Notes under the pieces: generated by a model
Database searches by the model: none
What the model saw: the letters and a program-made list of their open reading frames with translations, nothing else
What the model was told of the DNA's origin: nothing
In this document: one piece after another, positions 1 through 17,850 of the stretch
How positions within the stretch are numbered: the stretch's first letter is position 1
How the letters are laid out: every line of letters begins with the position of its first letter
Virus record (IMG/VR): IMGVR_UViG_3300046535_000306
Location: 1 to 23,692 of that record
Strand: one strand, 5' to 3'
DNA: 23,692 nt
Source of the DNA: a virus
Program-made: the position numbers and the translations under genes

Positions 1-2048
1 TAGTAGGCCGTGCTGCCACGCGAATTGAATCCTGCGAAGTTGCCCACACCTGCGCTGCCGCCCGACTTTGGTCCGCCGGCCTTACTGAACGCGCCACTCA
101 GCAGAGCCGCGGCGGCGATCGCGATGCCCACATAGGGAACTGCGACCCCGAACGCGGCTAAGGCCTCTGCGCTGATACCTGCCGCCGACGCCGCATCACC
201 GAGCAGCGCTGCCGTCGGCGGACCCACACCGCCAGCGCCTAAAGAACCGAATAGGCTGCCAGTGATTCCCCCACCACCACCGGCGCTGAACAGACTTCCG
301 AGCAGGTTTCCGGCGCCGCCGATACCGCCGCTTGCGCCACCGACCCCACCGACGAACGAGCCCGCGAGACTATTTGCCACCGGCTGCAATAGCGGCTGAA
401 GGACCAATTTCTTGAACAAGTCTTCCGCGTAGCGCTTGAGATCGTCGAACGCGCTCTTACCGTTGAACAGGAAGCTAGCGAACATATCGGCGAAGTCATG
501 GTCGATCGTCTTCGCCGCCTGCTCTGCTGCCTTCTCGGCTTCCTTGAACGCCTGCGCCAAGTCTTGCTTGGCTGCGAGGTCTGACGTGGCCGCGATTGCG
601 GTGTCGAGCAATTGCACGTTATAGGTCAGGCCCTCCGCTTCCGCCGCCGCCCGCTGCAGCCCGAGCCGGTAGATTTCCGTTTGCGTTGCGGTCAAGCCGA
701 ACGTTTCGTTCTGAATCTTCAGTTCTTCATTCTGCTTGACGAGCGAGTCGGTATAGGCGGCTGCGTCATCGGCGATTTTCTTTTCGGCCGCCGAGTATTG
801 CTCGAGCGCGGCACCCGTCTCCTTGACCGCGTCCGCCAGAACCTTCTGGCGTTCGGCGAGATCCTTGTTCGCGTCAATCAGCGCATCGTCTGCACCCTTC
901 GCCCCGAGCAGATCGGCCTTCCATTTTTCGTATGCAGTGCTGCTCAGGGTCAGCTTGGCGTAGGTGTCGACTAGCGATTCGGTAAAGGATTCGAGTGGCG
1001 TCTTCGCAGCCGTTACCGCCGCCGCATAGTCGAGCACCGGCTTCGTGCTCCATGCGTCGCCATAGACGGACTGCGGATTCTTCGAACCGCCGCCAGGAAT
1101 CTGCGCATTGAGCACGGCCTGCAACTGCGCTATGTGCTTCGCCGTCTGGTCGGCCTGGTCGGAAAGCCCTTGCAGGCCAAAGCCGAAGGCAGCCCACCCG
1201 CTATCTTTTCCCTTCGCGATTTGCTCGTTCAGCCCAGCCAACTGAGTCTGCAGTTCGGCGATATTCGTCTTGAGTTTGTCCGCTGGAATTGCGGCCACGG
1301 CGATGGAGTTGACCCAATCGAATCCAGCATCGCGCGCCGCCTTGAAACCTTCGATGAAGCCGGTAAGCGACGGGACCACGTCGCGCAGGATAATGTCCTT
1401 GAACGTCGTCGCCTCGACGCCGAGTAGGCGGATTTGCTCCGACAGTTTCGCCGCAGCTTCGGCGTCTGCTGTCGTGGTCGTCACAAGGTCGCCCGTCGCG
1501 CTCGCCAGACTGTGCATGGCCGCGATGATCTCCGGCCCGCTGCGCCCAAACAGATCACGCGCGATGGCAGCCTTGCCCGCGCCGTCGGCGTATTTTTCCA
1601 GCGCGACCGAAACGTCTTCCAATGCCTGCGCCGGGTCTTTGGCCGTTACCCCCAGGAATTCCAGCGCCTTCTGTGCCTTGGTGCTGCTGCTGCCGATCGT
1701 CTCCATCTGCGACGCGAGCTTCTCGAGCAGACTGCTGAATGTCTCGAAATCGGTGCCGCTCAGTTTCGCCGCATTCGACAATCGCGACAGATCTTCGACG
1801 CTTGAGCCGGTCACCGTCGATAGCTTGTGCAGTTCCTCGGCTGCGGAAATGACGCTCTTCGTGTACTCGGCGATGCCCGCGACGGACAGCCCCACGCCCA
1901 GCGCCGTGAACAATCCGCTGATCTGCGACGTTACCGCTGTCGCCGTCGCGCCGAGCTTGGTGAACCCAGCCGCCACCGATGTAAGCGCCGTCTGCGACGA
2001 GTCGGTCGCCGTGATGTCAATACGGGTTACTGCGGCTAGGTCGGCCAT
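1..2048 (-). CDS. Tail tape measure protein (C-terminus beyond the left edge)
   Basis: The frame is open from an ATG at 2048 to the window edge, giving 682 visible codons without a stop; an in-frame TAA at 2054-2052 sits just upstream, so this is the first possible ATG. The N-terminal part (MADLAAVTRIDITATDSS) leads into alternating hydrophobic and helical segments (residues 20-250), a charged coiled-coil-like middle, and a Gly/Ala-rich hydrophobic region near the left edge, preceded by FNGKSAFDDLKRYAEDLFKK. This is the pattern of lambda gpH-type tape measure proteins, which set tail length and help DNA entry. Its place directly after the frameshifted chaperone pair supports the call. No strong ribosome-binding site is visible; AAGGTGA lies rather far upstream. 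The true length cannot be seen here. Confidence 0.93.
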   Translation of the reverse strand, partial: MADLAAVTRIDITATDSSQTALTSVAAGFTKLGATATAVTSQISGLFTALGVGLSVAGIAEYTKSVISAAEELHKLSTVTGSSVEDLSRLSNAAKLSGTDFETFSSLLEKLASQMETIGSSSTKAQKALEFLGVTAKDPAQALEDVSVALEKYADGAGKAAIARDLFGRSGPEIIAAMHSLASATGDLVTTTTADAEAAAKLSEQIRLLGVEATTFKDIILRDVVPSLTGFIEGFKAARDAGFDWVNSIAVAAIPADKLKTNIAELQTQLAGLNEQIAKGKDSGWAAFGFGLQGLSDQADQTAKHIAQLQAVLNAQIPGGGSKNPQSVYGDAWSTKPVLDYAAAVTAAKTPLESFTESLVDTYAKLTLSSTAYEKWKADLLGAKGADDALIDANKDLAERQKVLADAVKETGAALEQYSAAEKKIADDAAAYTDSLVKQNEELKIQNETFGLTATQTEIYRLGLQRAAAEAEGLTYNVQLLDTAIAATSDLAAKQDLAQAFKEAEKAAEQAAKTIDHDFADMFASFLFNGKSAFDDLKRYAEDLFKKLVLQPLLQPVANSLAGSFVGGVGGASGGIGGAGNLLGSLFSAGGGGGITGSLFGSLGAGGVGPPTAALLGDAASAAGISAEALAAFGVAVPYVGIAIAAAALLSGAFSKAGGPKSGGSAGVGNFAGFNSRGSTAY

Positions 2049-2181: not shown

Positions 2182-2930
2182 TTACGGAGTCTTGGCGCGG
2201 CCATCGTTTACGCTTCGCAGGAACACCCGGTCCAAGTCGCGCAGGATCCCGACCTCGACAGGCGACGGCGCGTTACCGGTAAGCGATGCCCAGGCGGCCA
2301 GATCCGTCCAAGCGAGGGCGTTAGGGCCGAACCCGCTATTGCCGCGCCCCCCGCTGACCTCGATAAACCATTCGAACAGATAGCGCAGTTCGTCGGGGCA
2401 TTGCGGAACCTCGAGTTCTTCGCTGACCACGCCGACGCGGGCAGCGGCTTCAAGGTGCTCGCGACGCGTCGCGCCGTCTTCCATTCGCTGAGAGAGGTGG
2501 AAGACGGATCGCGCATGGTCTAGGAGCTGGGCGACCAGCCCGCCGTAAAATTTGCGATGTCGGTGAGTGCGCTGCTGATCTGCGCCCGGATCGGCGCGCG
2601 CAGGTTGCTGTAGAGGTCGCGGGCGGCCTGCGCAGAAAATGGCACGTCCTCGCCAGCCTTCATCAGATTCCTCCACCCCAGCGTCATCGCGACCAGGTAT
2701 TCGGTGTCCTCGGCATCGACCTCGTCGACGTCTTCCTCGAGCTTGACCTTGCCGCGCCGGTTCATCTCGGAACGGATGCGTCTGACGGTTTTCTTGCGCC
2801 ATCCTTGGCGCACGGGATGCCCCGGACCGGCGAGCAGGAAGACGGTCGCCGTCTTGTCGCCAAGTTTGTTCAGCAGCGGATATTCGATAACGTCAGGGCT
2901 TTCTATATCGTCTAGGTCGAGCGCATCCAT
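2182..2930 (-). CDS. Tail assembly chaperone, -1 frameshift fusion (gpGT-like)
   Basis: This is the long product of a programmed -1 frameshift. Ribosomes start at ATG 2930, read 128 codons in the first frame, slip at 2553-2547, and continue for 121 codons in the second frame to the stop at 2184-2182, giving 249 residues. The junction reads ..LTDIANF-YGGLVAQLL. The second-frame part is acidic/aromatic with FEWFIEVSGGRG and a C-terminal LDRVFLRSVNDGR. In lambda, gpG and gpGT are made in a fixed ratio, load onto the tape measure and recruit tail tube subunits. The order tail tube, frameshifted pair, tape measure is the same here. The second frame has its own ATG at 2802, but expression from that alone would be unlike the known systems. 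The call rests on context and the slippery site rather than on strong sequence motifs. Confidence 0.85.
2520..2930 (-). CDS. Tail assembly chaperone, short zero-frame product (gpG-like)
   Basis: A 136-residue protein starting MDALDLDDIESPDVIEY and ending FTAGWSPSS. It is the product of ribosomes that do not slip. The ATG at 2930 has GAGGA about 5 nt upstream. The protein is acidic at its N-terminus, has a basic stretch (RKKTVRRIRSEMNRR, about residues 45-59), then an acidic one (EEDVDEVDAED). The zero-frame stop TAG (2522-2520) comes 24 nt after the slippery heptamer, within the stimulatory stem-loop region. By analogy with lambda gpG it should outnumber the fusion and act as a chaperone for the tape measure. 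Its ribosome-binding site overlaps an inverted repeat (2937-2982). Confidence 0.88.
   Translation of the reverse strand: MDALDLDDIESPDVIEYPLLNKLGDKTATVFLLAGPGHPVRQGWRKKTVRRIRSEMNRRGKVKLEEDVDEVDAEDTEYLVAMTLGWRNLMKAGEDVPFSAQAARDLYSNLRAPIRAQISSALTDIANFTAGWSPSS
2524..2553 (-). promoter_or_regulatory. -1 frameshift cassette (slippery heptamer and stem-loop)
   Basis: On the minus strand the heptamer A AAT TTT (2553-2547) fits X XXY YYZ in the zero frame (GCA AAT TTT), so both tRNAs can re-pair one base back as AAA TTT. After a 5-nt spacer (ACGGC) comes a 7-bp stem, GGGCTGG (2541-2535) with CCAGCTC (2530-2524), including one G-U pair and a 4-nt TCGC loop. The -1 frame then stays open for 121 codons. 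These are the standard parts of bacterial and phage -1 frameshift signals. Confidence 0.92.
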
Positions 2931-2936
2931 TGTGTC

Positions 2937-2982
2937 CTCGCGACGTGTGAACCCGCACCGGACACTCGATCCACGTCGCGAG
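2937..2982 (-). promoter_or_regulatory. Inverted repeat overlapping the chaperone ribosome-binding site
   Basis: Arms CTCGCGACGTG (2937-2947) and CACGTCGCGAG (2972-2982) are perfect 11-bp complements around a 24-nt spacer. In the mRNA the 3' arm ends with the GAG of the GAGGA ribosome-binding site, just before ATG 2930, so pairing would partly hide that site. This could lower translation of the chaperone relative to the tail tube gene ahead of it. The effect is inferred; the repeat is seen. Confidence 0.5.
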
Positions 2983-3011: not shown

Positions 3012-3030
3012 GCTCGCTCACGGAGCGAGC
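3012..3030 (-). terminator. Hairpin at the end of the tail tube gene (no U-tract)
   Basis: A perfect 7-bp stem, GCTCGCT (3012-3018) with AGCGAGC (3024-3030), has a 5-nt loop and spans the TGA of the tail tube gene. No T-run follows on the minus strand (TAACCCGCCC), so it is at most a weak or factor-dependent terminator, or an mRNA 3'-end stabiliser. A drop in expression after the very abundant tail tube protein would make sense. Confidence 0.4.
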
Positions 3031-4232
3031 GAGTCCTGAAACCAAATGTTAGTGGCCTCGCTATCAGTCCCGGTGCCGCCAGCGGTGTTGTCGATTGCAG
3101 TAAATGGCGCGCTGATGCTTAGCGAACCCTGGCCGTCTGTCGGTTTGGTGTTTCCGATAATGCAAGCTGGCAGACTGAAACACATGAAATCGGACGCGGC
3201 CGCGGTGCTAGCAAACGTCGCGACGTTGATGGCGACGGCGGTTCCAGCAACGTAAGCGTCAACCATTGTCGAGTCTTGAAACTGCGTGACGATTGTTCCG
3301 TCGACGTCGATCGGTCCGGCATAGACATCCGGTGTATAGTTGCTGCCGACGCAGGCCACGGTCGTCATGTTTCCGTTGACCTTGAACTGGAGGCTGGTGA
3401 CCGCACCCTGAAGCGTTCCGCCGAACTTGACTAGACCCGTGACCGCCGTCAACCCGCCGCTTGTCGTGACTGCAGTTGGCGACGAGAAGTATTGCGAGGA
3501 ACTTGGCGTTTGGCCGAAGCCCTTGCCGAGCAGGGCAAGCGTGCATTCCGCGTATCCCGTCGCTGGCAGCGCGAAGTCGCACGACGCTATTCTGTCGCCC
3601 GATGTAACGTGCGACATATTCGGGGTGTCTGAAAAGAACCGTTCGAACGTGTACGAATCATTTGTGTGCCCGGTGCTCGGCACGTAACTGATCTTTCCGG
3701 GGATGGTGACCGTGCAACTAGAGATCGGTCCTTCGGCGACCATCGCGACGCCATTGGCGACCTGCACCGTGATGACGGTCGCGGTCGACGAGATCACGAA
3801 TAGATTCTTGTTGAGGTTCGCTGCGTTCAGCGCGCCTGCAGTCAGCCGGATCACCATGCCCTGCTTGATGCCGCCAGTCAGGAATCCCGTGCCGGTAATG
3901 GTGAATGTCACGCCGGACCCCGCGGCGATCGTCAGCGATACGCCGGTCATCGCAGACACTGCAGTGAAGTCGCGACGCACCAGCGAGCCAAGTAGCGCGG
4001 TGTAAGTCCCGCCGCTTAGTTCTCCGTTTAGCGACCCTTCTGCGTGGCGCGATCCCTTTACATATGACTGGCGCTTTTGCGTCGTGTTGATTTCCGCGCT
4101 GCTGTAAAAGGCCGCGACCTCGCCGATGTCAGCCGTTTTGCGCCGCAAGTACTGCGCGCCGCTAGCGCCGGCCAGCGTGCCCCAGGTCGACTCTTTCTTG
4201 TACGCCAGTTTGGTGAAAATGCCGGTTGCCAT
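3018..4232 (-). CDS. Major tail tube protein
   Basis: A 404-residue protein starting MATGIFTKLAYKKESTWG. AGGAG lies 8 nt upstream of ATG 4232. It is rich in Gly, Ser, Thr and Ala and almost free of Cys-rich or catalytic motifs. Two regions (about 1-90 and 185-404) resemble the N- and C-terminal parts of siphovirus tail tube proteins, with an inserted beta domain (about 95-175: FLTGGIKQGMVIRLT.., NLNKNLFVI.., ITVQVANGVAMVAEG), an insertion seen in many long tube proteins. A segment with GTLQGAVTSLQFKVNGNM and the C-terminal DSEATNIWFQDSLAP fit the family. It should form stacked hexameric rings of the non-contractile tail. The order terminator, tube, chaperone, tape measure supports the call. 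Confidence 0.87.
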   Translation of the reverse strand: MATGIFTKLAYKKESTWGTLAGASGAQYLRRKTADIGEVAAFYSSAEINTTQKRQSYVKGSRHAEGSLNGELSGGTYTALLGSLVRRDFTAVSAMTGVSLTIAAGSGVTFTITGTGFLTGGIKQGMVIRLTAGALNAANLNKNLFVISSTATVITVQVANGVAMVAEGPISSCTVTIPGKISYVPSTGHTNDSYTFERFFSDTPNMSHVTSGDRIASCDFALPATGYAECTLALLGKGFGQTPSSSQYFSSPTAVTTSGGLTAVTGLVKFGGTLQGAVTSLQFKVNGNMTTVACVGSNYTPDVYAGPIDVDGTIVTQFQDSTMVDAYVAGTAVAINVATFASTAAASDFMCFSLPACIIGNTKPTDGQGSLSISAPFTAIDNTAGGTGTDSEATNIWFQDSLAP

Positions 4233-5897: not shown

Positions 5898-7943
5898 CTA
5901 CGACAGGTTCGTGCCGACGCAGAAGGATGTCGGGTAGCGGAGCATGACGTCCACCATCCACATCGCTCGGATGCCGACCTGCGCCGTGTTGAAGCGCGTG
6001 CCGCCGTTGTCCGTCGACAGTTCGAGGACGCCCCATTCGCCGATGACCACTTCATCCCATGAACCGAAGATGATGTTGGCGCTCGACAGTTGCTCGGACG
6101 ACATCGCGTTGAAGCCGACCAGGTTGCCGTCGAGCATGTTGCCGGTCCACAGCGGCGTGTCGGTACTGGTGAAGCGCTGCACTTGCATAAGCCGCGCCGC
6201 GCCAGCGGTCGTCGTGACCCAGCCCGGATTGCCGCGAATGGCGTTCAATGCGCCGACGGTCGAAACGAACGCCAGGATCTTGGCATAGGTCGCGCTCGCG
6301 GCGTCCTGCCCGCTGGTGATGCCGGCGGTGTTCATAATCCCGATCGGCTGCGCGCCGCCCGTGCCGTTGATGACCGCAGCGTCGACGCCGTCGATTGCGA
6401 CGTCGGCAGCCAGGTCAGCCATGACGAACGCTTCCGCTGAGGGCGACGCTTGACGGAGCAGTTGCTCGTCGACATCGGTGATGGCGATACAGGTCTTTGG
6501 CGTCATGGACAGTTGACCGAGCGCCTGGTCGGCAGCGGTGACGCTGGTACCTGCGCCGGCTTGCCAAGTCACGGACACCTTGCCCGTTTGACGCGGGAAG
6601 GCGACATTGCCCTGCAGGCCCGACAGCACGCGGGAGCCCATGCGCATCGCCACCGAGCGGTTGCGCAGGATGTCGATAAAGCCCATGTTCTCGATGCCGA
6701 CCATGTATCCGCCCTTGCTGCCTGGCGTGATCGACATCGCGCGCGTCGCGGCTTGTTCGCCGACGCTGCGCTGCAGCACTTCGCCTGGAACGAGCAGGCC
6801 GGCGCTCTCGCCGCGGTTCAGTTGCTTGGCGACCTGCTTCGAGCACTCGATTTCGAACGCGGCTTCGCGGTTAAACTCGGAATTGCGACCACCGAAATGC
6901 AGGGCGCGGATTGCCCGGAACAGGCTGTAGCGCTGCGTTTCCTTGTTGGTCATCCCGACGTTGGTCGCGACGGTAGGATTGGACCGGCCGCGTTCTTCCA
7001 TCGCCAGGAGCGCGGCTTTCGACACATCGGCGAGCGACGTGCCGTCCTGAATCCAACCGTCAATCACGCGAACGTCGCTGATCTTCGCAGCCTTCGCGAT
7101 GTTGATGATTGATTCGCGGCGCTCTTTTTCCGCGTCGACAGCGCTGATGCGGCTGATTACGGTCGCTGCGGCGGCTGCCGCGGCGGCTGTGGGATCGGCG
7201 CCGCCGGCCGCTTGTGCTACTTGTACTGCATCCATCGTAATGCTCCTTGCGGCGACGGCCGCGCTATTTGCACCTGTATTCGGTGCGGGTTCAGTTGTTT
7301 GTGTGGTGACGGCAAGCGACCGTCCGACGCCGACCGTGGGATCGGCGGCCATCGTCACGAGCGACGATTCGCCCGGCTCCCAATCGACCACGTCATAGGT
7401 CGGCATGTCATCGTCGGCGCGCTCGAATGCGCCGAACTCTTTGTCGAGCATCGAGCGGAAGTGCGGAACATCCGCGCCGCGGGCGCTCAACGTCGATGAG
7501 AGCAAACGCTCGAACGCTTGGCCGTCGAGCTCGCGCTTGCCCTTCTTCGTCCGCTCGACAACCTTATGGATGCGGTATCCGGAACTGATCTGGCGAAGGT
7601 GGCCGCCCTCGATGAGTCCGATTGCGTCGCGTCCGGGCTGCGTCGCCGAGGTCACGCTTACGCTCGCGCGCAGGACGCCGTCTGGGGAAATCTTCGCGGT
7701 GTCTGGAACGTGCGACCCGCGGATGTCGTCCATATTGTGGTTGAACAGGAGAGATGCGCCAGTGTTCAGGCGACCGAGGCGCACGGCAGCAGGGTCCATC
7801 GACAACACCTCGGTGCCGTACCAGCGCTCAACCGGATACCCCGACGCAATGGCGATCGGCAGCACCAGGTCTTCGCCTTCCTTGCGTGCTGCGGCCGCGG
7901 GCTTCTCGATCGTGGAAAAACGTCGCATTGCGAAATCGTTCAT
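5898..7943 (-). CDS. Prohead protease fused to HK97-type major capsid protein
   Basis: A single 681-residue protein carries two functions that are separate genes in HK97. Residues 1-210 match the U35 prohead protease: SLLFNHN with likely catalytic His69, RQISSGYRI with likely catalytic Ser120, and the end motif WEPGESSLV..ADPTVGVGRS (188-209). Residues 210-330 are a low-complexity linker (eight alanines, 253-260) and a charged helical region that may act as a built-in scaffold (delta) domain. Residues 330-681 match HK97-fold capsid proteins: GGYMVGIENMGFIDILRN, PRQTGKVSVTWQAGAG, the VNGTGG-like loop VINGTGGAQPIGIMNT, and a C-terminal FNTAQVGIRAMWMVDVMLR. ATG 7943 overlaps the portal stop (ATGA) and has GGAGG 7 nt upstream. 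Self-cleavage would release the mature capsid subunit; the cleavage site is not visible by eye. Confidence 0.93.
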   Translation of the reverse strand: MNDFAMRRFSTIEKPAAAARKEGEDLVLPIAIASGYPVERWYGTEVLSMDPAAVRLGRLNTGASLLFNHNMDDIRGSHVPDTAKISPDGVLRASVSVTSATQPGRDAIGLIEGGHLRQISSGYRIHKVVERTKKGKRELDGQAFERLLSSTLSARGADVPHFRSMLDKEFGAFERADDDMPTYDVVDWEPGESSLVTMAADPTVGVGRSLAVTTQTTEPAPNTGANSAAVAARSITMDAVQVAQAAGGADPTAAAAAAAATVISRISAVDAEKERRESIINIAKAAKISDVRVIDGWIQDGTSLADVSKAALLAMEERGRSNPTVATNVGMTNKETQRYSLFRAIRALHFGGRNSEFNREAAFEIECSKQVAKQLNRGESAGLLVPGEVLQRSVGEQAATRAMSITPGSKGGYMVGIENMGFIDILRNRSVAMRMGSRVLSGLQGNVAFPRQTGKVSVTWQAGAGTSVTAADQALGQLSMTPKTCIAITDVDEQLLRQASPSAEAFVMADLAADVAIDGVDAAVINGTGGAQPIGIMNTAGITSGQDAASATYAKILAFVSTVGALNAIRGNPGWVTTTAGAARLMQVQRFTSTDTPLWTGNMLDGNLVGFNAMSSEQLSSANIIFGSWDEVVIGEWGVLELSTDNGGTRFNTAQVGIRAMWMVDVMLRYPTSFCVGTNLS

Positions 7944-9547
7944 CGTTGCCCTCCGACCGCGGCGAGACGCGCCGGCGGCGTGGTTGATGGTTCCGGCGGC
8001 GCAGAGGTCGAGGGTTCGCCTTGAACCGTCTGCGGATTCGGACGCGCAGCGCTGATTGCGGGAACGACCGCCGGATCTGTATCGAGCACGATGCCCTTGG
8101 CTGCAAACATCTTCAGTTCGCGGTCGCGCTCGGTGACGATGTCTTCGACGTCGCGTCCGTCAGCCGTCTGCGCAATGACGCTGCTCACAGTGGTGAATCC
8201 GCAGCGCACTGCCTTTTCGAAGGCTTCGACCTCTTTGGTCGGATCGACCCAGCTCCAGCCGCGCGGCTTGAAACTGACGGCATCGCCGAAGCGGTCTGGA
8301 CTCGTGCCATAGGCTTCCAGCGAGATAGATGGAATCGCACGCGCCAACACAGCCTGCTGCAGCCACGTTTCGTGCAGACCAGTGCGGAAGGCGCGAATGA
8401 ACCACTGCTGCAGCATCTTCCAGAGGTCGCGATCGTCGAGCAGACCGAGACGGCTGCTCGAATAGTTCGACTGCGAGTAGTCGCGCGACAGCGATTCGTA
8501 ACTGACCGATGAGCCCGCGGCCATCTCGCGCAGCATGGCGCGCATGAACGGATCGAAGGCAGTGTTCGGCCGGTTCGGCGTGACGAAGTTGAGCTTCTCG
8601 CCGGACAGCAGTTTCTGAACCGAGCCCGGCTCAAGGTCGAAATTCTGGGTTCCGTCGGGCTGCGGGACGCCCATCGGTTCGGTCGGGTCAGCCGTTTCGA
8701 TCGTCGCCAAGTAGCAGGCGGCACCGCGCGCAGCGACGAGCTCGGCCTCGCTGTAGCCGTCCATGTCGTTCAGTTTGCGGATGCACGCGTGCAGCCACGG
8801 CTCGCCGCGCGTCTGCGGCCAGCGGTCGACGAGCTTCAGGTGAATAATCTGGTCGGCCGGAACGCGCTCGACCTTGTTGATCACCGGCAGGTAGCCGTTG
8901 AACTCACCCGGATGGAAGTTCCATATCCAATACGCAAGCGGGCGGCCGAAGCTGTCGAGCTCGACGCCCATGCGCAGCGCGGCGCCGTTGGTGATGGGCA
9001 CTGGCGGCGAAGCAGTCGTGAACTTGTCGGCGAGACGCTCCGGCTCAATCAACTCGAGAGCCAGCGGAACATCCGAGTCGCCGAACTTCTGGAAGTGCTT
9101 GCGGATGAACACCTCGCCGGTCTCGAACACCTCGCCCATCGCTGCGCGTTCGAAGTCCGAGAAGTGTAGGACGCCGCCGGTGTGGCAGCTGTCTGCCTCG
9201 CACCACTCTGTCCATGCTTCCTCGATGTCGCTGTTGATGCGCTCGTTGAGTCCGTCGCGGCTCGTCATCACCTGCGCTTGCATCCCGATGCCGGCGCCGA
9301 CGACGTTGTTGACGACGATGACCTTCGCCCGCTTCGCATAGGACGAATCGCGCACCAGTTGGCGCGAACGCGAACGCAGCAGACCGAGGCTGGAGATGAG
9401 TTCCGAGTCGGCGCTGAAGTCGCTCTGCCCGAAGCCGCCGAGTAGTTTGCTACCGCGGGCAGCCTGATACATGCGCCGCGCCACTTCTTGCCCGGCAGAT
9501 TGCGCCGCCGGCTTTGCCAGCCAGTTGTCGACGCCGGACCAGATCAT
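7940..9547 (-). CDS. Portal protein, lambda gpB family
   Basis: About 535 residues from ATG 9547. In-frame TTG (9571) and GTG (9559) lie upstream, overlapping the previous gene, and no start has a convincing ribosome-binding site, so the exact start is open. Lambda-family portal features are clear: an N-terminal YQAARGSKLLGGF segment, then LISSLGLLRSRSRQLVRDSSYAKR, VVNNVVGAGIGMQ, the FETGEVFIRKHFQKFG strand, LELIEPERLADKF, VPADQIIHLK..WPQTRGEPWL and the later SYESLSRDYSQSNYSSSRLG helix that lines the channel. The C-terminal 50 residues are Pro/Ala-rich. It should form the dodecameric ring at one capsid vertex that binds terminase. Gene order portal, then protease/capsid is standard. Confidence 0.94.
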   Translation of the reverse strand: MIWSGVDNWLAKPAAQSAGQEVARRMYQAARGSKLLGGFGQSDFSADSELISSLGLLRSRSRQLVRDSSYAKRAKVIVVNNVVGAGIGMQAQVMTSRDGLNERINSDIEEAWTEWCEADSCHTGGVLHFSDFERAAMGEVFETGEVFIRKHFQKFGDSDVPLALELIEPERLADKFTTASPPVPITNGAALRMGVELDSFGRPLAYWIWNFHPGEFNGYLPVINKVERVPADQIIHLKLVDRWPQTRGEPWLHACIRKLNDMDGYSEAELVAARGAACYLATIETADPTEPMGVPQPDGTQNFDLEPGSVQKLLSGEKLNFVTPNRPNTAFDPFMRAMLREMAAGSSVSYESLSRDYSQSNYSSSRLGLLDDRDLWKMLQQWFIRAFRTGLHETWLQQAVLARAIPSISLEAYGTSPDRFGDAVSFKPRGWSWVDPTKEVEAFEKAVRCGFTTVSSVIAQTADGRDVEDIVTERDRELKMFAAKGIVLDTDPAVVPAISAARPNPQTVQGEPSTSAPPEPSTTPPARLAAVGGQR

Positions 9548-9551
9548 CGGA

Positions 9552-10124
9552 TTAGCCACGGCTAAGCCCAATCTGAATGCGGAACGGATCGCCGAGGCCC
9601 TTGGCCATCGCCGTCGCGCGCTGCTCGAGCGCGAGGTCGCCGAGCGCGGTTTGAATGGCGACCACGAAATCGGAATCGTTCTTGAACACCATGCGCCGAC
9701 TGCCGATCGAGTATTCCTTGATGCCGCCCTGGCTCACTGAGTAGGCGGCGCGCGCTGCCTTCAGGTCATCGACCGCCTTCTGCGCCTGGCTGCGAAAGTC
9801 CGTCCCCGCCGGCGAGGTCGCGCGGTTCGCGGTGACCACCGTCTGCCCGTCATCAACGGGAATGCTGGCGCCGGTCTTTTCGACCTTCGACGCCCAACCG
9901 TATGCGCCCGGCGTCCAGGTGTTGGACGTTCCCGGACCGATCTGGACGCGATACTTCTGCGCGTCGCCGTCGGAGCCGCCTGACGCCGCATTGAAGCTGA
10001 TGTTGTTGCCTGTCGCCGACTGCGCGGTCAGGTAATAGGTGAGGGTCCAGCCGTCAGTCGCGGGGTAGCCTGCAACTGACACATCCCAATCAAATGAATC
10101 GCCCGCACCGAGCTGTGCCTTCAT
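9552..10124 (-). CDS. Conserved structural protein next to portal (Ig-like plus gpW-like)
   Basis: A 190-residue protein with two parts. Residues 1-100 (AGDSFDWDVSVAGYPATDGW, then LTYYLTAQ, WTPGAYGWASKVE) have the W-x-L-x-Y and YPA-x-D-G-W pattern of a beta-sandwich found in many phage proteins encoded just before the portal. Residues 110-190 (FRSQAQKAVDDLKAARAAY.., EYSIGSRRMVF..) are helical with a G-x-R-R/x turn like gpW-type head-tail joining proteins. It may therefore help connect portal and tail. No clear ribosome-binding site is seen before ATG 10124. The call is by pattern memory and position. Confidence 0.65.
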   Translation of the reverse strand: MKAQLGAGDSFDWDVSVAGYPATDGWTLTYYLTAQSATGNNISFNAASGGSDGDAQKYRVQIGPGTSNTWTPGAYGWASKVEKTGASIPVDDGQTVVTANRATSPAGTDFRSQAQKAVDDLKAARAAYSVSQGGIKEYSIGSRRMVFKNDSDFVVAIQTALGDLALEQRATAMAKGLGDPFRIQIGLSRG

Positions 10125-10177
10125 GGAACGTCATTTGACGCGTCCCGCGAAAGCGAGTTAACCCAAAACTGAGACTT

Positions 10178-11680
10178 TCAGCCGAGACGGCGGATGCGTG
10201 GCGTCGACGACGCACTGCCGAGCCGCTCAGTCGTCGGCAGGACGTTGTCGACAAAGTCCGCATTGGCTGCAAACACTGCGCGGAATAGATGACCGCTGGT
10301 CGTTGCGGCAACACCGAGCCCGGTCGAGGCGACTACGGTCGCATGAGTCAGCGAGCCGCCCCCAGCCGTCATTGCTTGGCCGACGAGGAATGACAATCCC
10401 TCTTGCGCGGTCAGGATCGTTCCTTGGCTGACCGTTGTCGACAAGCCGACTAGCGCGATGCCTACACCGACGCCAGCCGACGCCACCGTGGCCGCTTGGC
10501 CTGCCAGCAATGGTGCTGTCGCAGGAATGGGCGTTCCGACGCCTGACGTCGCCGCTATCCCGATCAAGGCCGCGCTGCCAGGAGCGCCGCCGACCATCGT
10601 TCCTTCCGCCGATGATGCAGCAGCGCCCACAAGAAGCACTGACGTCGATTCGACTAGAGTGCCGGTCGCTGCTGTCGAAGACTGACCGGACGTAGCTACG
10701 GCGTCAGCAGGAACTTGCGTTCCACGACCGGCGGTCGCCGCGATACCGGTCAGCGTGATAGAGCCACCAATGGACAGACCGAAACTGCCCTGCCCCATCG
10801 TCGCAGCGATTCCGGTCAACGTGTCGGCACTGGCTGGTACCGCTGTGCCGACCGCAAAAGTCGCGGCAATGCCTGTCTGCGCCAAGGTCGATGCTAAAGC
10901 GAATGTCCCGCCTGCCGACGTTGCAGCAGCGCCCGCAATAAGTTCACCTGCGCCGAGCGTTCCTTGGCCAGAAGTCGCAGCAATACCCGTCAGCGCATCC
11001 GCATCAGCCGGGATTAGCGTTCCACCTGCGGATGCTGACTCCAATCCGGTAAGCGTTGCACTGCCTGGTGCTGACGCTTGGATAGTCCCTTGCGCGGATG
11101 TCGCTGCGATTCCAGTCAGCGCTGTGTCTGTGGCAAGCGCTGGCGTGCCTGATGCGGTTGTGGCGGCGTTCCCGGTTAGAGCGTCCGCAACCGAATCGGT
11201 AAGCGTACCCGCGGCAGCGGTCGCTGCGAATCCTGTCTGAGTCATCGCGAGAGCCGGGATCAGCGTGCCGAGCGCAGACGTCGCGGCGGCGCCGGTCATT
11301 GCGACAATGCTGGACGGCGCTAGCGTGCCGGGCGAACTGGTTGCCGCTATGCCGGCCGGCAGCGCATCATTCTCTATCGCTGCCGTGCCGCCGGCTGCAG
11401 TAGCCGCGATGCCGACGAGTGCGGCAGCATAGTCGACCGCACCGGCAATCGCGCCGCTGGCTGATGTTGCGGAAATACCGCTAAGCGCGAAGTCGACGGC
11501 CGGTGTTAGCGTTCCTCCGGAAGCGGTGGCGGCGATGCCGAGCTGTACTGACTCGTTCGCGAGAGTAAATGCCCCGACCGATGACGGCGATTCCAATCCA
11601 ACCGGAACGCTCTGGCGGTCAGCACCAACCGGCGACCAGTCAGCGATGGTACTTCGTGCAATCGGGCTGGATGCAATCAT
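10178..11680 (-). CDS. Tandem beta-repeat virion protein (about 22 repeats)
   Basis: A 500-residue protein. After an N-terminal motif, MIASSPIARSTIADW, residues 28-469 hold about 22 copies of a roughly 20-residue unit with consensus G-I-A-A-T-S-A-x-G-T-L followed by about seven variable residues and an L-T. The C-terminus (ERLGSASSTPRIRRLG) is not repetitive. It is almost free of Lys, Cys, Trp and His and rich in Ala, Gly, Ser and Thr. Similar G-x-x-A-T-x-x-x-G-T repeats occur in structural proteins of many phages, so an elongated beta-solenoid or fibre shaft is likely. ATG 11680 has AAGGG about 10 nt upstream. No enzyme motif was found. The exact location on the virion is unknown. Confidence 0.75.
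   Translation of the reverse strand: MIASSPIARSTIADWSPVGADRQSVPVGLESPSSVGAFTLANESVQLGIAATASGGTLTPAVDFALSGISATSASGAIAGAVDYAAALVGIAATAAGGTAAIENDALPAGIAATSSPGTLAPSSIVAMTGAAATSALGTLIPALAMTQTGFAATAAAGTLTDSVADALTGNAATTASGTPALATDTALTGIAATSAQGTIQASAPGSATLTGLESASAGGTLIPADADALTGIAATSGQGTLGAGELIAGAAATSAGGTFALASTLAQTGIAATFAVGTAVPASADTLTGIAATMGQGSFGLSIGGSITLTGIAATAGRGTQVPADAVATSGQSSTAATGTLVESTSVLLVGAAASSAEGTMVGGAPGSAALIGIAATSGVGTPIPATAPLLAGQAATVASAGVGVGIALVGLSTTVSQGTILTAQEGLSFLVGQAMTAGGGSLTHATVVASTGLGVAATTSGHLFRAVFAANADFVDNVLPTTERLGSASSTPRIRRLG
10274..11599 (-). repeat. Array of about 22 coding repeats, period near 60 bp
   Basis: Degenerate tandem units of 18-23 codons (mostly 20) encode G-I-A-A-T-S-A-x-G-T-L motifs. 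DNA copies differ at many positions while the protein motif is kept, so this is an old, selected protein repeat and not a recent DNA expansion. Confidence 0.85.
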
Positions 11681-11695
11681 CGCTTCGCGCCCTTG

Positions 11696-12610
11696 CTACA
11701 GATTACCTTCGGACACCCATGTCCCCGGCGAGCCCGACACCGTGCAAGACCATGCTTTAGGGCTGCCTACCGCTGGAGGATCGCGCACTACGCGTTCATC
11801 CGTGGTCCATGACAGCGTTGTGTCAGTCGGAATCGCCGGACCGCGCCACGAATCGGCGTTGCGCTGAAATACTTGCGTTGCGCCAAAGAATTGCATATCG
11901 GGCTGGATAACAGGCTGAACTACTCGCGCTGCTGCGCACCCGGCAGACAGCAACTTGTCGCCGTTAGTTGGTATCCTAAATTCTATCGTGGCAGCGTAGG
12001 AGGTAACGCCAGCCTGCACAAGATAAACCCACTGAAACGATATCCATTCGCCCTTGCTAATAGAATTGCTGTCCAGCGTTTGCACTCCAGCGCCCCACGC
12101 GTCAGCCAGCCCACCGCCATTAATGGCATCGCTGACCAGAAAATCCAGGGTAGTCCCGGTGTTCGTTGTAGGTATCTGAATGCGGGCCGTGAAAACCAAA
12201 TAATTGCCGGCAACGCAGGTAATCGGGGTTGACCAGTCCAGCAGCACTTTGCCGGGGGTGCCGGACGCGGTAACTTGAACAATATGCGTCTGTTCCCCGC
12301 TCGGTCCGGTGGCCGTGGATGCCGTTGTCGCGGCGCTGGTTAGCGTCGGCACAGTAGTTGGAAAACTCAAAACGGCATGCGGAGGGCGCGCGGTGAGCAT
12401 ATTCAGCGCCACTAGCTGCTTCATTTGGTGCTGCAGCCCCTGGACGGCGACGTGCATATCGCGCATATGCTGGCTCGTATGGTCCACCACCTGCGCGGGC
12501 GCCGGGGCTTGCTGCCACGACTGCATCGGCATAGGTTGCGCGTGATACGGTCCAACCTCCTGCGCATCGCTGGCCGCGATATGCTGCAGCATGTTATGAA
12601 ATATGCCCAT
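11696..12610 (-). CDS. Lectin-like virion protein with spike-type C-terminal motif
   Basis: A 304-residue protein. Residues 1-75 are helical (MLQHIAASDAQEV, a Pro/Gln-rich stretch, then HMRDMHVAVQGLQHQMKQL), perhaps a trimeric coiled coil. Residues 85-235 look like a jelly-roll, as in carbohydrate-binding domains (LLDWSTPITCVAGNYLVFTARIQ, TLDFLVSDAI). The last 60 residues end in PPAVGSPKAWSCTVSGSPGTWVS, a motif often found at the C-terminus of phage tailspikes and fibres. This suggests a receptor-binding or capping subunit. ATG 12610 has GAGGG 4 nt upstream, overlapping the previous stop. The carbohydrate-binding role is inferred from fold-like patterns only. Confidence 0.6.
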   Translation of the reverse strand: MGIFHNMLQHIAASDAQEVGPYHAQPMPMQSWQQAPAPAQVVDHTSQHMRDMHVAVQGLQHQMKQLVALNMLTARPPHAVLSFPTTVPTLTSAATTASTATGPSGEQTHIVQVTASGTPGKVLLDWSTPITCVAGNYLVFTARIQIPTTNTGTTLDFLVSDAINGGGLADAWGAGVQTLDSNSISKGEWISFQWVYLVQAGVTSYAATIEFRIPTNGDKLLSAGCAAARVVQPVIQPDMQFFGATQVFQRNADSWRGPAIPTDTTLSWTTDERVVRDPPAVGSPKAWSCTVSGSPGTWVSEGNL

Positions 12611-12616
12611 ACGCCC

Positions 12617-13411
12617 TCAATGTAATAGCAGCACTATTGCGTCATCCTCGTCCTGAGCCTGTTGCGCCTGATACGCCTCTAGCGCGAGCTGGCCCCTGAT
12701 TGCAGCCTTGTACATTTCATCGATCTGCGCCGACAAGGCGTCTAGCGTGGGCTGCAGGTCCGGCAGATTGCTCTTGAGCAGCGGCGGTTCTGTAATCGGC
12801 TCAATGAAATTCTTGCGCGGCCGCTTAGGCTTACTCGCTGCCTTGGCGAGCTTGGCCGCGTTCTCCTGCGCCAGTTCGTACAGCTGCGCGAGCACCTCTT
12901 CGGCGTGCGCTTGGTCGCGGACCTCGTAATACTGTCCATCGACTTCGATGTATTGCTTGCGAGTACCGCGCCCACGCTTGCCGCCACCGACTGGTGTAAC
13001 GGTACTGGTTACGCCGCTCTGCGCGAACGTCGGCAGCAGACCGGTCAGCGTAATAGTGCCGAGCGGCGCTACCTCGCTCTCGCTCTGATCGAGCGTCGGC
13101 AGAAGCTGCGTTAGTGTCAGTGTGCCGAGCGGCGCGGCCTGACTATTGCCCTGCGTCAGCGTCGGAACAAGCTGCGTCAGGGTTATGGTGCCCAGCGGGG
13201 CGACTAGGCCTTCTTGCTGGTCGAGCGTTGGTACGAGCTGGGTTAGGGTTATCGTCCCCAGATCCGCCGCGATAGCGTTGTTATTGGTCTGGTCTAGCGT
13301 CGGCGTTAAGCCGATAAGGGTTAGAACACCCAGAACACCCGCAGCAAACGTTACGCCCGCATTTTTAAGGCTCGCTATAGAGGTACTAGCGATTGGGGCT
13401 TTAGAGATCAC
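12617..13411 (-). CDS. Short tandem-repeat virion protein, GTG start
   Basis: A 264-residue protein starting MISKAPIASTSIASL. Residues 27-133 hold five repeats, four with an exact period of 22 residues: L-G-T-I-T-L-T-Q-L-V-P-T-L-D-Q. Residues 145-264 form a different C-terminal domain: a basic turn (GGGKRGRGTRKQY), then YIEVDGQYYEVRDQ, then helices rich in Ala, Glu and Gln. This turn plus I/V-x-V-D-G is a pattern seen after such repeats in other phage virion proteins. The start is GTG 13411, whose last base overlaps the previous TGA (GTGA). The N-terminal P-I-A-S motif and repeat phase match the 500-residue protein nearby. Confidence 0.7.
   Translation of the reverse strand: MISKAPIASTSIASLKNAGVTFAAGVLGVLTLIGLTPTLDQTNNNAIAADLGTITLTQLVPTLDQQEGLVAPLGTITLTQLVPTLTQGNSQAAPLGTLTLTQLLPTLDQSESEVAPLGTITLTGLLPTFAQSGVTSTVTPVGGGKRGRGTRKQYIEVDGQYYEVRDQAHAEEVLAQLYELAQENAAKLAKAASKPKRPRKNFIEPITEPPLLKSNLPDLQPTLDALSAQIDEMYKAAIRGQLALEAYQAQQAQDEDDAIVLLLH
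13013..13333 (-). repeat. Five coding repeats, 66-bp period
   Basis: Units begin at residues 27, 51, 73, 95 and 117 of the encoded protein; the last four are spaced exactly 22 codons (66 bp). Each encodes L-G-T-[IL]-T-L-T-[QG]-L-[VL]-P-T-[LF]. DNA units are similar enough to point to more recent duplication than the repeat array at 10274-11599. Confidence 0.88.
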
Positions 13412-13740
13412 AGACTATCGTCCCAGAAAACCTTTCCATCTGCCTCATAGCCCTCGGGCAGAATGAACAGGCACTGCCACAGCGCCGAGCCGTCCTTGGT
13501 CGCTGTGATCTTGTGCGGAACATTCGCCCTGAACACGAAACAGTTAGGCGCTGCGACCGTCTTAGTCTCGCCCTCGGCCGTTACCTCTACCGCGCCACTT
13601 AGGACGACCGTGTAATGGTCGAGCGTGTGCATATGCTCGGGCTCGCCTTCGCCCGCCGCGTGCTCGAACAGGCGGAAAACAAAGGCAGGAGCGGCTGCGG
13701 TTGGAATGAATAGCGCCTCGGAACCGTTCATGACAGGCAT
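13408..13740 (-). CDS. Cupin-domain protein in the tailspike operon
   Basis: A 110-residue single-domain cupin. Motif 1 is PEHMHTLDHYTVVLSG (His36, His38, with Asp41/His42 where Glu is usual) and motif 2 includes VPHKI (His76), giving a likely metal-binding set of three or four histidines. The core has the usual G-x-V-x-V turn and a second beta-strand pair ending LWQCLFILPEGYE. Its end overlaps the GTG of the repeat protein (GTGA) and its start overlaps the tailspike stop; ATG 13731 (Met4) would give the common ATGA overlap and is an alternative start. Cupins include isomerases, dioxygenases and sugar-binding proteins, so the role here, perhaps on a sugar or a spike-bound metal, is unknown. 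Confidence 0.85.
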   Translation of the reverse strand: MPVMNGSEALFIPTAAAPAFVFRLFEHAAGEGEPEHMHTLDHYTVVLSGAVEVTAEGETKTVAAPNCFVFRANVPHKITATKDGSALWQCLFILPEGYEADGKVFWDDSL

Positions 13741-15401
13741 ACCAGCGTGTCGCCAGCGGGCAGCGCCGTCGTAAGCAGTGAATCAACCGCCGCGAATACG
13801 GTGGGTATCGTATAAGCAACCGCAGATATAGTACCGGCTGTGTTGACTCTAATACCGTGATAACCATACCCGTCGATGTCCATCATAATCACCTCAGTGC
13901 CAGTACCCGACGTCTCGATGGACGATACGACGGTCATTTTCGGCCGATTGGTAACTCCAACATCCCTATAGAAAAGATTTCGCGTAGTCCCGGCGAAATG
14001 CGTAGGATTGTTAAATTGCAGATCGGCCGCGGCCGGATCACCGAAAACGAACGGCCACGGACCTCTTGCCGTCGTGTTGTCGGCTGTGTTCTGGATGTTT
14101 ACCGCATCGAAAACAATCCGCTGGCCGTAGATTAGAACAATCGGGCCGCTATGGTTGTATTGTTGATGGTAGGAATAAGGAGCGCTCCACAGGCCGCCCC
14201 GCACAGAGACACCGTTACACGGATTATCAATCCGCATATTACAGAGCGTGTTCTCGAAATATGGATTATCAACCACGGCGCCAGACACATTTCGAAGCGC
14301 TATACCAATGGTCGGTCCTTGAATAATGCAATTCGCTATTGTGCAGGAATAACCACCGTTGACCGCCACCCCATATGAGCAAATACTGGGGTCCGTGCTG
14401 TAACCCCCGGTGTGCAATCGCTGCACATTCACTGCTTGGGTATGCTCTGAAATATAGATGCCGTAGTTCATGGCGGCACCGTTCATAATGATGTCTTCAA
14501 AGTTACAGACATATGTATAGTGCGCCATTATCCCGATATTAAACGTGCCGTAGAACCAGATGCGGCGGCAGACGTTGCCGTAGCTTTTATAAAACTGGAT
14601 CCCGGTGTGTGTGGCGTCATTTAGATCAAACGCCAAGTCCTCAACGCCCGATGAATAGCCCCCGAAACCGTCGCCGCTGACCGCGCCTAGCCCGCCACTA
14701 TCAATGTTTTTAATGCACACCTGACGGGGGGCGCCGGGCCTGAATATGATTCGCGGGTCCGTCAATGTGGCCGGATCGTTAACGAGTAGCGCGCGCCTTG
14801 GGCCGCCTAGAATCTGCCCCTTCTGCAGCTTTAGCGTCCTTGTGATTAGATAGGTGCGAGGCGCGTACACAAAATGCGCCCCCGTATCTAATGCCGCCTG
14901 AAATGCCGTGGTGTCGTCGGTTATGCCATCGCCCGCACACCCAAAATCGTCCACGCACACAAGCGGATCGAGAATGCTGAACGTTACACTATTGACGGTT
15001 ACATATACATTTTTCGTGCCAACCGAGAAATTCACCAGTTGATTGTTATTGCTACTGGTCAATACTGCGGACCGAGACAGCACTGTGCCGTCCCAGACGC
15101 CGTGCCCCGTCTCGAACTCGCCCACGACGGTTACGCCTTCTATCGTGTAGTCAAAGTGCGTGCCAGCCGTGACCGCGGCCGCGAATGTGCGGCAGCCAGA
15201 CATGGCGCCGCCCATTGTAATCGGCCCATTACCGAAGCTGGTCGTCGTCTCGCCTACACGGTCATAGAATGACTTGTCCCCGTTGAATATCGCGGGCGGC
15301 CGGTAATTGGTAGACGGTCGATTAACATAATCGCGTAGCCCGATAGCGGCCGGCGACGTTACCGACGGCCCACCAGGTGAAACCGGCGCTCCAAAGGGCA
15401 T
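13728..15401 (-). CDS. Tailspike with right-handed beta-helix (pectate lyase-like)
   Basis: A 557-residue protein. Residues 1-140 form an adaptor-like domain (FYDRVGETTTSFGNGPITMGG, then TVLSRSAVLTSSNNNQLVNF) common at the N-terminus of phage spikes. From residue 151, DDFGCAGDGITDDT starts a pectate-lyase-3-type beta-helix with the usual D-D-x-x-A-F-Q-A-A-L, followed by many short turns (NVCRRIWFYGT, NFEDIIMNG, NVQRLHTGG, IANCIIQGP, VVDNPYFEN). Such spikes bind and often cut host surface polysaccharide; specific catalytic residues cannot be named from sequence alone. The gene is AT-richer than its neighbours: 26 of 60 bases are G or C at 14221-14280, against 35 of 60 at 8581-8640, a sign of transfer. 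It has no clear ribosome-binding site; its ATG is 3 nt past the previous stop. Confidence 0.9.
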   Translation of the reverse strand: MPFGAPVSPGGPSVTSPAAIGLRDYVNRPSTNYRPPAIFNGDKSFYDRVGETTTSFGNGPITMGGAMSGCRTFAAAVTAGTHFDYTIEGVTVVGEFETGHGVWDGTVLSRSAVLTSSNNNQLVNFSVGTKNVYVTVNSVTFSILDPLVCVDDFGCAGDGITDDTTAFQAALDTGAHFVYAPRTYLITRTLKLQKGQILGGPRRALLVNDPATLTDPRIIFRPGAPRQVCIKNIDSGGLGAVSGDGFGGYSSGVEDLAFDLNDATHTGIQFYKSYGNVCRRIWFYGTFNIGIMAHYTYVCNFEDIIMNGAAMNYGIYISEHTQAVNVQRLHTGGYSTDPSICSYGVAVNGGYSCTIANCIIQGPTIGIALRNVSGAVVDNPYFENTLCNMRIDNPCNGVSVRGGLWSAPYSYHQQYNHSGPIVLIYGQRIVFDAVNIQNTADNTTARGPWPFVFGDPAAADLQFNNPTHFAGTTRNLFYRDVGVTNRPKMTVVSSIETSGTGTEVIMMDIDGYGYHGIRVNTAGTISAVAYTIPTVFAAVDSLLTTALPAGDTLVCLS

Positions 15402-15404
15402 CGA

Positions 15405-16058
15405 TTAATTGCGACTGAAAATGTACGCGAACTGCGGAATAACGCTGTTCGTCGTGCTCAGCGTCTTACGGATCGTGATATTCCCGTTGATGGTCGTGTC
15501 CACTGAAGCCGACGTTCCGCCGAATGCGATCGTATTCGGGTTCGCCGTGCCCGAGCTGATGCCGCCATTCATGGAAAAGAATCCGGTGCCGATAACCGTG
15601 CTATTCGCACCAGCGGCGCCGACAGTGCGCACAACTAGGTCAAACGCCAGATACCACGCAGCAATCGCCGCCGTCACCGTGCCCACGGTCAGCGACACCC
15701 CAAGCGTGGTGCCAGCTGGACCCCACTGCGGGGTAATGATCGCCGTGCCGCCGGTCAGTGAAATGGTGCCGCCCGCGCGCACACAGTAAATCTTGCCCGC
15801 CTTCGCATCGTTGGCGAAGATCGGCGTAAACGTGATGCCGGCCCACAGGTCCTCGATCGTGGTCGCAGTCAACGTCGTCAGGTTGGCGATGGGCGGATCG
15901 ATGTACGGGCCGTCGGCATACTGTGGACGCGCCTGATGCAGTTGGAACGGCGTGCGCATCTGGCCTATCTCCTGACGCGCTAGCCCACGCTTGAACATGC
16001 GCTCGAACTGCTGCGAAGTCGTTGGCGCCGCCTTGATTGGATCAAGAATATCTAACAT
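15405..16058 (-). CDS. Beta-rich virion protein of unknown role
   Basis: A 217-residue protein starting MLDILDPIKAAPTTSQQ. Residues 1-45 are helical and charged (FERMFKRGLARQEIGQM), possibly an anchor to the virion. Residues 55-217 are a Gly/Thr/Ala-rich beta domain (IYCVRAGGTISLTGGTAIITP, WYLAFDLVVRTVG, FFSMNGGISSGTANPNTIAFGG) with a jelly-roll-like pattern. A strong site, AAAGGAAAAC, lies ahead of ATG 16058. It sits directly before the tailspike, 3 nt from its start, so a base or collar for the spike is a reasonable guess. No family name was recognised. Confidence 0.6.
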   Translation of the reverse strand: MLDILDPIKAAPTTSQQFERMFKRGLARQEIGQMRTPFQLHQARPQYADGPYIDPPIANLTTLTATTIEDLWAGITFTPIFANDAKAGKIYCVRAGGTISLTGGTAIITPQWGPAGTTLGVSLTVGTVTAAIAAWYLAFDLVVRTVGAAGANSTVIGTGFFSMNGGISSGTANPNTIAFGGTSASVDTTINGNITIRKTLSTTNSVIPQFAYIFSRN

Positions 16059-16070
16059 TTTCGTTTTCCT

Positions 16071-16544
16071 TTAGGCGATGCGGATGAGAGCGTTCGAGCT
16101 GTCGTTTGTGGGCATCGTGAGCGTAAAATTGCCCGCAGTCACAGTCTGCGATCCGAAGGTAAATACAGCGACCGCCTTATTGCTCTGCGAACTGTTGTAA
16201 AGCGTCGCGCAATCGAACGCGGTCGACAGCGTGACAGTGCTCCATGTCACGTTCGCGCTCGGCGTCCAGTAAGCTGTCGTGCCGCTGGTCGTTGGCACTG
16301 TCGCATTGGTGACTGCTGCGCCGCCTGCGGTGTAGTTGGTGCCGCTGACCTCATTGCTCGATGAGTAGGCGGTCGTGCCCGCACCTTGCGAGCCGGTCGC
16401 GAGGTAGAGGGCCATCTTGAAACTGTCGACCGTCGGCGATGTGAGACTGGTGCGCGACGTGATGGTCGGCGATCCGAACTGATGCACGCTACCGGTGAGC
16501 AGTTCTCCTTTGAAACTTGTGCAGATTGCGGCTGAGTTAGCCAT
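16071..16544 (-). CDS. Conserved beta-rich virion protein
   Basis: A 157-residue protein starting MANSAAICTSFKGELLTG. It contains FKMALYLATGSQGAGTTAY, then EVSGTNYTAGGAAVTNA, TAYWTPSANVTWSTVTLSTAFD and VFTFGSQTVTAGNFTLTMP. This exact pattern (A-L-Y, GT-x-A-Y, E-x-S-G-T, then strand pairs ending V-F-x-F-G-x-Q-T-V) recurs in structural proteins of many phages of proteobacteria, so it is conserved although its function is not known to me. The ribosome-binding site AAGGA lies 8 nt upstream of ATG 16544, which is just past the previous TGA. A surface or tail location is likely. Confidence 0.68.
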   Translation of the reverse strand: MANSAAICTSFKGELLTGSVHQFGSPTITSRTSLTSPTVDSFKMALYLATGSQGAGTTAYSSSNEVSGTNYTAGGAAVTNATVPTTSGTTAYWTPSANVTWSTVTLSTAFDCATLYNSSQSNKAVAVFTFGSQTVTAGNFTLTMPTNDSSNALIRIA

Positions 16545-16545
16545 T

Positions 16546-16803
16546 TCATGTTCCTTTTTCGACGCCCGTTTGCAGGCCTGATTTCAATGTGACCCATCGG
16601 TCCTCTCGCACCAGGCGGCCCCGGTAGAAGTAACGCCGCGTCATCGTCAGCGATCCGCCATCGTCACGCTGTCCGACTTTAATCGCTAGTTCTGTCTGTC
16701 GTTTCGGCCCTTCGGCCGTATCGATCAGCGGGCAACCGTCGGCATCGGCCACCACTGCGACCGGAGTCCCGTCGATGCGTTCGATGATCGGCTGGTCGTC
16801 CAT
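16546..16803 (-). CDS. Small hypothetical protein in the adsorption block
   Basis: An 85-residue protein from ATG 16803, beginning MDDQPIIERIDGTPVAVVAD and ending VTLKSGLQTGVEKGT. It is mixed alpha/beta with many charged residues (RRYFYRGRLVREDRW), unlike its beta-rich neighbours, and looks like a soluble small domain. ATG lies 2 nt after the previous stop (TGAACATG), so coupling to the 346-residue gene is likely. A longer reading from 16923 would overlap that gene by about 120 nt and is not supported. No function can be given. Confidence 0.6.
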   Translation of the reverse strand: MDDQPIIERIDGTPVAVVADADGCPLIDTAEGPKRQTELAIKVGQRDDGGSLTMTRRYFYRGRLVREDRWVTLKSGLQTGVEKGT

Positions 16804-16805
16804 GT

Positions 16806-17846: not shown

Positions 17847-17850
17847 GGCG

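Follow-up and report, generated by a model that had tools for sequence, protein, structure and literature searches.

We propose that two overlapping reading frames on the minus strand of a virus record constitute one gene with two products, the longer of which would arise through -1 programmed ribosomal frameshifting, as in lambda G/GT; from sequence comparison, we put the probability of this reading at about 0.95. The record, hereafter the window, is the whole stretch of DNA analysed, and comprises 23,692 bases with head and tail genes on its minus strand. A preliminary description had already suggested a -1 programmed frameshift in the tail assembly chaperone, and this is now supported by the gene order, the domain assignments, matches to fused protein families, the conservation of site, frame and codon choice, and a relative annotated as gpG/gpGT. 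The elements of the locus, in the direction of transcription, are the following.

3018-4232, minus strand: tail tube protein, 404 aa, upstream neighbour (PF18906 Phage_tube_2, E 1.2e-25; phrog_290, E 6.6e-38)
2936-2939, minus strand: GAGG, resembling a Shine-Dalgarno sequence, 5 nt ahead of the G start codon; putative function
2520-2930, minus strand: zero-frame ORF G, predicted tail assembly chaperone (gpG analogue), 136 aa (from the ORF, phrog_313 and the predicted fold)
2547-2553, minus strand: slippery heptamer A AAT TTT (from sequence and phase, and conservation in relatives)
2524-2541, minus strand: hairpin GGGCTGG-TCGC-CCAGCTC, 7 bp with one G-U and a 4-nt loop; possible stimulator (from sequence)
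2182-2547, minus strand: -1 frame extension T, 121 codons plus stop TAA (from PF23812, fused PHROG families and the predicted fold)
3-2048, minus strand: tape measure protein, downstream neighbour, running past the window end (phrog_9570 and other tape measure families)

Gene order and predicted products of the G/T locus

The locus has the lambda-type order of tube, G/T and tape measure genes, with the two overlapping frames in between. ORF G starts with ATG at 2930, stops with TAG at 2522-2520 and is matched by phrog_313, 'Tail assembly chaperone' (E 1.3e-9), while the -1 frame runs from TAC (2547) to TAA at 2184-2182. The predicted GT product consists of G residues 1-128 followed by 121 residues, 249 aa in all, with the junction ..IANF-YGGLV... 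The coordinates and lengths given in the preliminary description proved correct to the base on rechecking, and recomputation agrees with its predicted pair of 136 and 249 residues and with a -1 frame open for 121 codons to 2182.

The T extension, translated from 2553, belongs to the Pfam family PF23812, Phage_TAC_18 (E 3.4e-12), scoring 46.7 bits against a curated cut-off of 27 and covering profile positions 8-79 of 79. Furthermore, a virtual GT aligns unbroken across the junction with two fused families that are both called tail assembly chaperone, namely phrog_8233 (residues 82-217, E 5.9e-6, compared with 0.0049 for G alone) and phrog_15027 (residues 95-237, E 0.0029, compared with 0.024 for T alone). 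An NCBIfam search returned no family, and nothing credible came from searching the PDB by sequence with G or with a profile of T. A 50-codon ORF at 2052-2204, without a notable family match, overlaps the end of T and spans the gap to the tape measure gene.

The structure model of G has a mean pLDDT of 86.4. Searching the PDB for this model with Foldseek found nothing with E < 1, and VIA re-alignment to 117 chains gave three with Z of at least 2. The best of these belong to 2ob9, the tail assembly chaperone of HK97 (Z 4.5, rmsd 6.1, 101 aligned residues, 8% identity), and to YqbN, 3klu (Z 4.2, rmsd 4.9, 95 aligned residues), which we take to be a prophage tail chaperone. Because these Z values are low, the fold likeness of G to both is only a hint, and that to 2ob9 lies below the level that would establish kinship alone. 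The T model, with a mean pLDDT of 93.4, opens with a helix at residues 2-20 and matches fused viral tape measure/tail assembly chaperones in BFVD; an Escherichia phage Seurat protein of 268 aa matches it with E 4.9e-4 and a TM of 0.82 by query, and the K1H protein of 259 aa with E 9.1e-4. VIA-align of the T model found middling helical look-alikes only.

The slippery site and its conservation in relatives

The preliminary description had the zero frame ending 24 nt after a perfect A AAU UUU heptamer (2553-2547), and this is confirmed: the heptamer is in the correct phase, the zero-frame codons being GCA AAT TTT ACG, and the 24 nt to the G stop are 2546-2523. It is the single in-frame X XXY YYZ within the 373-nt overlap of the two frames. 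Codon shuffles of this overlap contain at least one in-frame X XXY YYZ in 31.7% of cases, and one with Y = A/T in 10.4%; since some such motif is found in about 32% of the shuffles, the window heptamer alone is weak evidence. Judged by sequence comparison, its significance comes from its conservation in relatives and not from the window alone.

Relatives were sought by several routes. With T as query, tblastn showed that 127 phage records encode T, many matches beginning at query residue 1 or 2, which is the junction, and tblastn with G found one phage record. Seventeen of the first 41 T matches were inspected, and then three more (DMU1, PMBT14 and Serbin), which were left out of the heptamer counts. 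A DNA-level search of the phage collection found nothing similar, and scans of viral contigs found no relatives with T alone and one with G alone. A portal protein query identified 13 viral loci, with a T match by tblastn in locus L022 alone, and no loci in genome contigs. From the viral-contig scan with alignment A2, 80 of 99 loci were kept, and the corresponding scan of genome contigs supplied one; L002, L022 and the window were also added to the set. An HMM placed T in 100 of the 114 sequences, which form 32 clusters at 70% T identity; T was not placed in L001 (the window's own locus), in L074 (a match of 31 residues only) or in 12 of the 13 portal loci. The junctions of L018 and L075, the latter with an insertion in T, were corrected by hand, raising the clusters with a heptamer from 26/32 to 28/32, and that of L011 is an extrapolation, so its row is unreliable.

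Frames were compared in related phages, as the preliminary description had called for. In 97 of the 100 loci, the sequence upstream of T keeps a -1-related frame open over 100 codons or more; the exceptions are L058 and L072, both cut by a contig end, and L009 (Pseudomonas phage PaMx28), with a long G ORF in the other frame. A canonical in-frame heptamer lies no more than 18 nt from the junction in 96 of the 100 loci and 28 of the 32 clusters, compared with 8 in 3,105 at other upstream codons of the same G frames, or 0.033 expected per locus. The clusters are distributed over the heptamers as follows.

T TTT TTC: 12 clusters
T TTT TTG: 3 clusters
T TTT TTT: 2 clusters
T TTT TTA: 2 clusters
A AAT TTT: 5 clusters, the window included
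A AAT TTC: 2 clusters (A AAT TT[T/C] type together 7/32)
A AAA AAG: 2 clusters (L052, L058), 9 nt downstream of the aligned position
Junction without a canonical heptamer within 18 nt: 4 clusters (L002, L003, L011, L061)

Two of the four clusters without a canonical heptamer keep UUU as the A-site codon, L003 with G GAT TTT, the sequence of Roseobacter phage CRP-6, the best phage match, and L002 with G TCT TTT. PMBT14 carries TTTTTTC at the junction; Serbin has no heptamer there, but AAAGGGT just before the G stop.

Codon choice points in the same direction. At the junction, 30 of the 32 clusters encode Phe by TTT and none by TTC, the remaining two having no Phe there, whereas elsewhere in T and G the Phe codons are TTT 84 times and TTC 143 times (Fisher p 2e-12, an approximate value with clusters taken as independent). 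Among the 11 clusters of at least 60% GC, the ratio TTT:TTC is 11:0 at the junction and 9:66 elsewhere. Protein constraint alone would not give a TTT-only Phe codon, and selection therefore appears to act on the nucleotides of the junction.

The stem-loop is the weakest element of the predicted signal. The 5-nt spacer (ACGGC, 2546-2542) and the 7-bp hairpin (2541-2524) are present as had been described, but the hairpin is not energetically special, the folding stability of the 55 nt downstream of the heptamer being ordinary (z = +0.2). In dinucleotide shuffles, a hairpin of at least 7 bp beginning 4-9 nt past the site is found at a frequency of 2.4%, by a criterion set after the hairpin had been seen. 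When stretches of 37 and 57 nt are folded alone, the minimum-energy structure differs from this hairpin, which appears in folds of 81 and 87 nt. Taken over the 32 clusters, the RNA beyond the site folds somewhat more stably than its shuffles do (mean z -1.5, s.e. 0.3), but this is not so in the window, and the hairpin therefore counts as a candidate stimulator only. Visual inspection of the 37 nt upstream of the heptamer revealed no Shine-Dalgarno-like stimulator.

Two further observations concern individual relatives. At 1150-1300 of L009, the slippery run of PaMx28 is one T shorter than in its relatives, and the short T run together with the shifted G ORF of this record perhaps reflects a homopolymer sequencing error. 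In Rhizobium phage RHph_X2_24 (L008, 1581-2207), a homing endonuclease is annotated directly between T and the tape measure gene.

Alternative explanations and the proposed mechanism

Most public records of relatives imply a T gene separate from G and started independently; its start in the window would be ATG 2484, the first one in the T frame. Among the 20 records inspected, only DMU1 carries a joined CDS and one is unannotated, the rest giving G and T apart, T mostly as a separate hypothetical protein, or omitting T. However, ATG 2484 has no Shine-Dalgarno-like sequence, whereas G is preceded by GAGG, and the position of the first T-frame start varies from codon 4 to codon 111 across the clusters (L011 left out). 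Six of the 32 clusters have no T start within the first 80 codons, five of them having one only at codon 84-111 and one none at all. Moreover, the T residues ahead of ATG 2484 are conserved and form the confidently predicted helix of residues 2-20; going by the model, a protein begun at residue 24 would lack this helix, making the ATG 2484 start improbable. The heptamer and the junction TTT codon are conserved as well. Separately started frames in relatives had been named in advance as an observation that would count against a frameshift; in the comparison no fixed T start was found, and the frameshift is not refuted. Judging from these sequences, the T extension is unlikely to be independently started, and we regard a separate T gene as very improbable.

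A sequencing error or mutation that split one ancestral gene, with the heptamer present by chance, seems to us the least probable explanation of all; it could draw on the frequency of heptamers in shuffles of the window and on the homopolymer length that varies between records, as in PaMx28, but the same -1 relation and the same site recur in loci from many sources. Slippage by RNA polymerase during transcription, instead of by the ribosome, might be suspected from runs of 7-8 T at the site in several relatives (L022, L006, L012 and L015 among them). The window, however, has only AAATTTT and six other clusters have AAATTT[T/C], and runs of the AAATTTT type are shorter than those at which transcriptional slippage is known, so that this origin of the GT frame is also highly unlikely.

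In the ribosomal frameshift that we favour, most ribosomes would read G and terminate at 2520. A minority would pause on the A AAU UUU heptamer, where tRNA-Asn occupies the P site and tRNA-Phe the A site; having moved back by one base (to AAA UUU), these would read the -1 frame to 2182. The product of this slippage would be GT, carrying the TAC_18 domain at its C-terminus. By analogy with lambda, the role of G may be to coat the tape measure protein and that of the T part of GT to recruit the tail tube protein, both G and GT departing before tail completion. The sequences show the frames, the site, the assignment to families and the conserved frame, site and codon choice, and from these we infer the slippage itself, how often it happens, what the proteins do and whether the hairpin helps.

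The sites of the relatives also suggest a tentative refinement, which we consider possible but rather doubtful, namely that the A-site UUU is under constraint and the P-site half may decay. Because CRP-6 with G GAT TTT and L002 with G TCT TTT keep UUU, some members might shift mainly by the A-site tRNA-Phe, without full P-site re-pairing. If this is true, the group would contain, at a single homologous position, natural sites that grade from canonical to half-canonical.

Relation to known systems and other features of the window

Xu, Hendrix and Duda are reported to have described, in 2004, a conserved tail-assembly frameshift in dsDNA phages. The G/T locus resembles lambda gpG/gpGT in its position between tail tube and tape measure genes, in a late -1 shift in G, in having a short and a long product and in its X XXY YYZ site, and sequence similarity is not required for this likeness. 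It differs from lambda in its site, A AAU UUU, and in the TAC_18 assignment of T, and no lambda G or T family is among its Pfam matches. The earlier statement that the proteins show no obvious similarity to lambda's thus stands for lambda itself, but T does fall in a known tail-assembly-chaperone family, PF23812. According to PMC5009743, both lambda proteins, gpG and gpGT, bind the tape measure protein, the tube protein is bound through the T part, the ratio of the two products matters, and the -1 shift in tail assembly is widely conserved. PMC3483164 reports like sites predicted in two Burkholderia phages and RNA structures at such sites that are frequent but not universal, and in PMC10885494 the program PRFect treats non-canonical motifs as usable. 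A search of the literature on tail frameshifts with AAATTTT or TTTTTTC returned no title on this site, and the heptamer is not claimed to be unpublished.

The closest annotated precedent is Acinetobacter phage DMU1 (MT992243.1), in which gpG is annotated along with a 'tape measure chaperone gpGT' frameshift product, the latter as a joined CDS. DMU1 shares the homologous T domain and the same -1 relation with the window, but its T is about 26% identical and it has T TTT TTC at the same place instead of A AAU UUU. With Phage_TAC_18, phrog_8233 and phrog_15027, the window shares the domain and colinearity across the junction, at low identity, and represents a new sequence. Since DMU1 is already annotated with a gpG/gpGT frameshift, the window adds a member to a known system, and the G/GT finding is sound but ordinary, otherwise textbook biology. 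It unites two unnamed ORFs in a single gene that has two products, and it shows that the records of many relatives list separate hypothetical proteins, with improbable starts, despite the conserved site, frame and codon choice. In addition, the 32 clusters yield an alignment of naturally occurring slippery sites at a single position.

Elsewhere in the window, the terminase gene (20840-22780) is separated from the portal gene (7940-9571) by about 11 kb of tail-fibre-like and accessory genes (9552-20547), an unusual location for such a block, which includes the following.

13408-13740: cupin
13728-15401: pectate-lyase-like protein
17851-20547: 898-aa protein

The proteins encoded at 10178-11680 and 12617-13411, for which no Pfam match was found, contain short degenerate repeats of the GIAATSA.GTL type and the TLTQLVPTLDQ type, and a 66-bp tandem repeat is present at 13056-13204. 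At 5898-7943, the prohead protease and the major capsid protein are encoded in one 681-aa ORF (PF04586 and PF05065).
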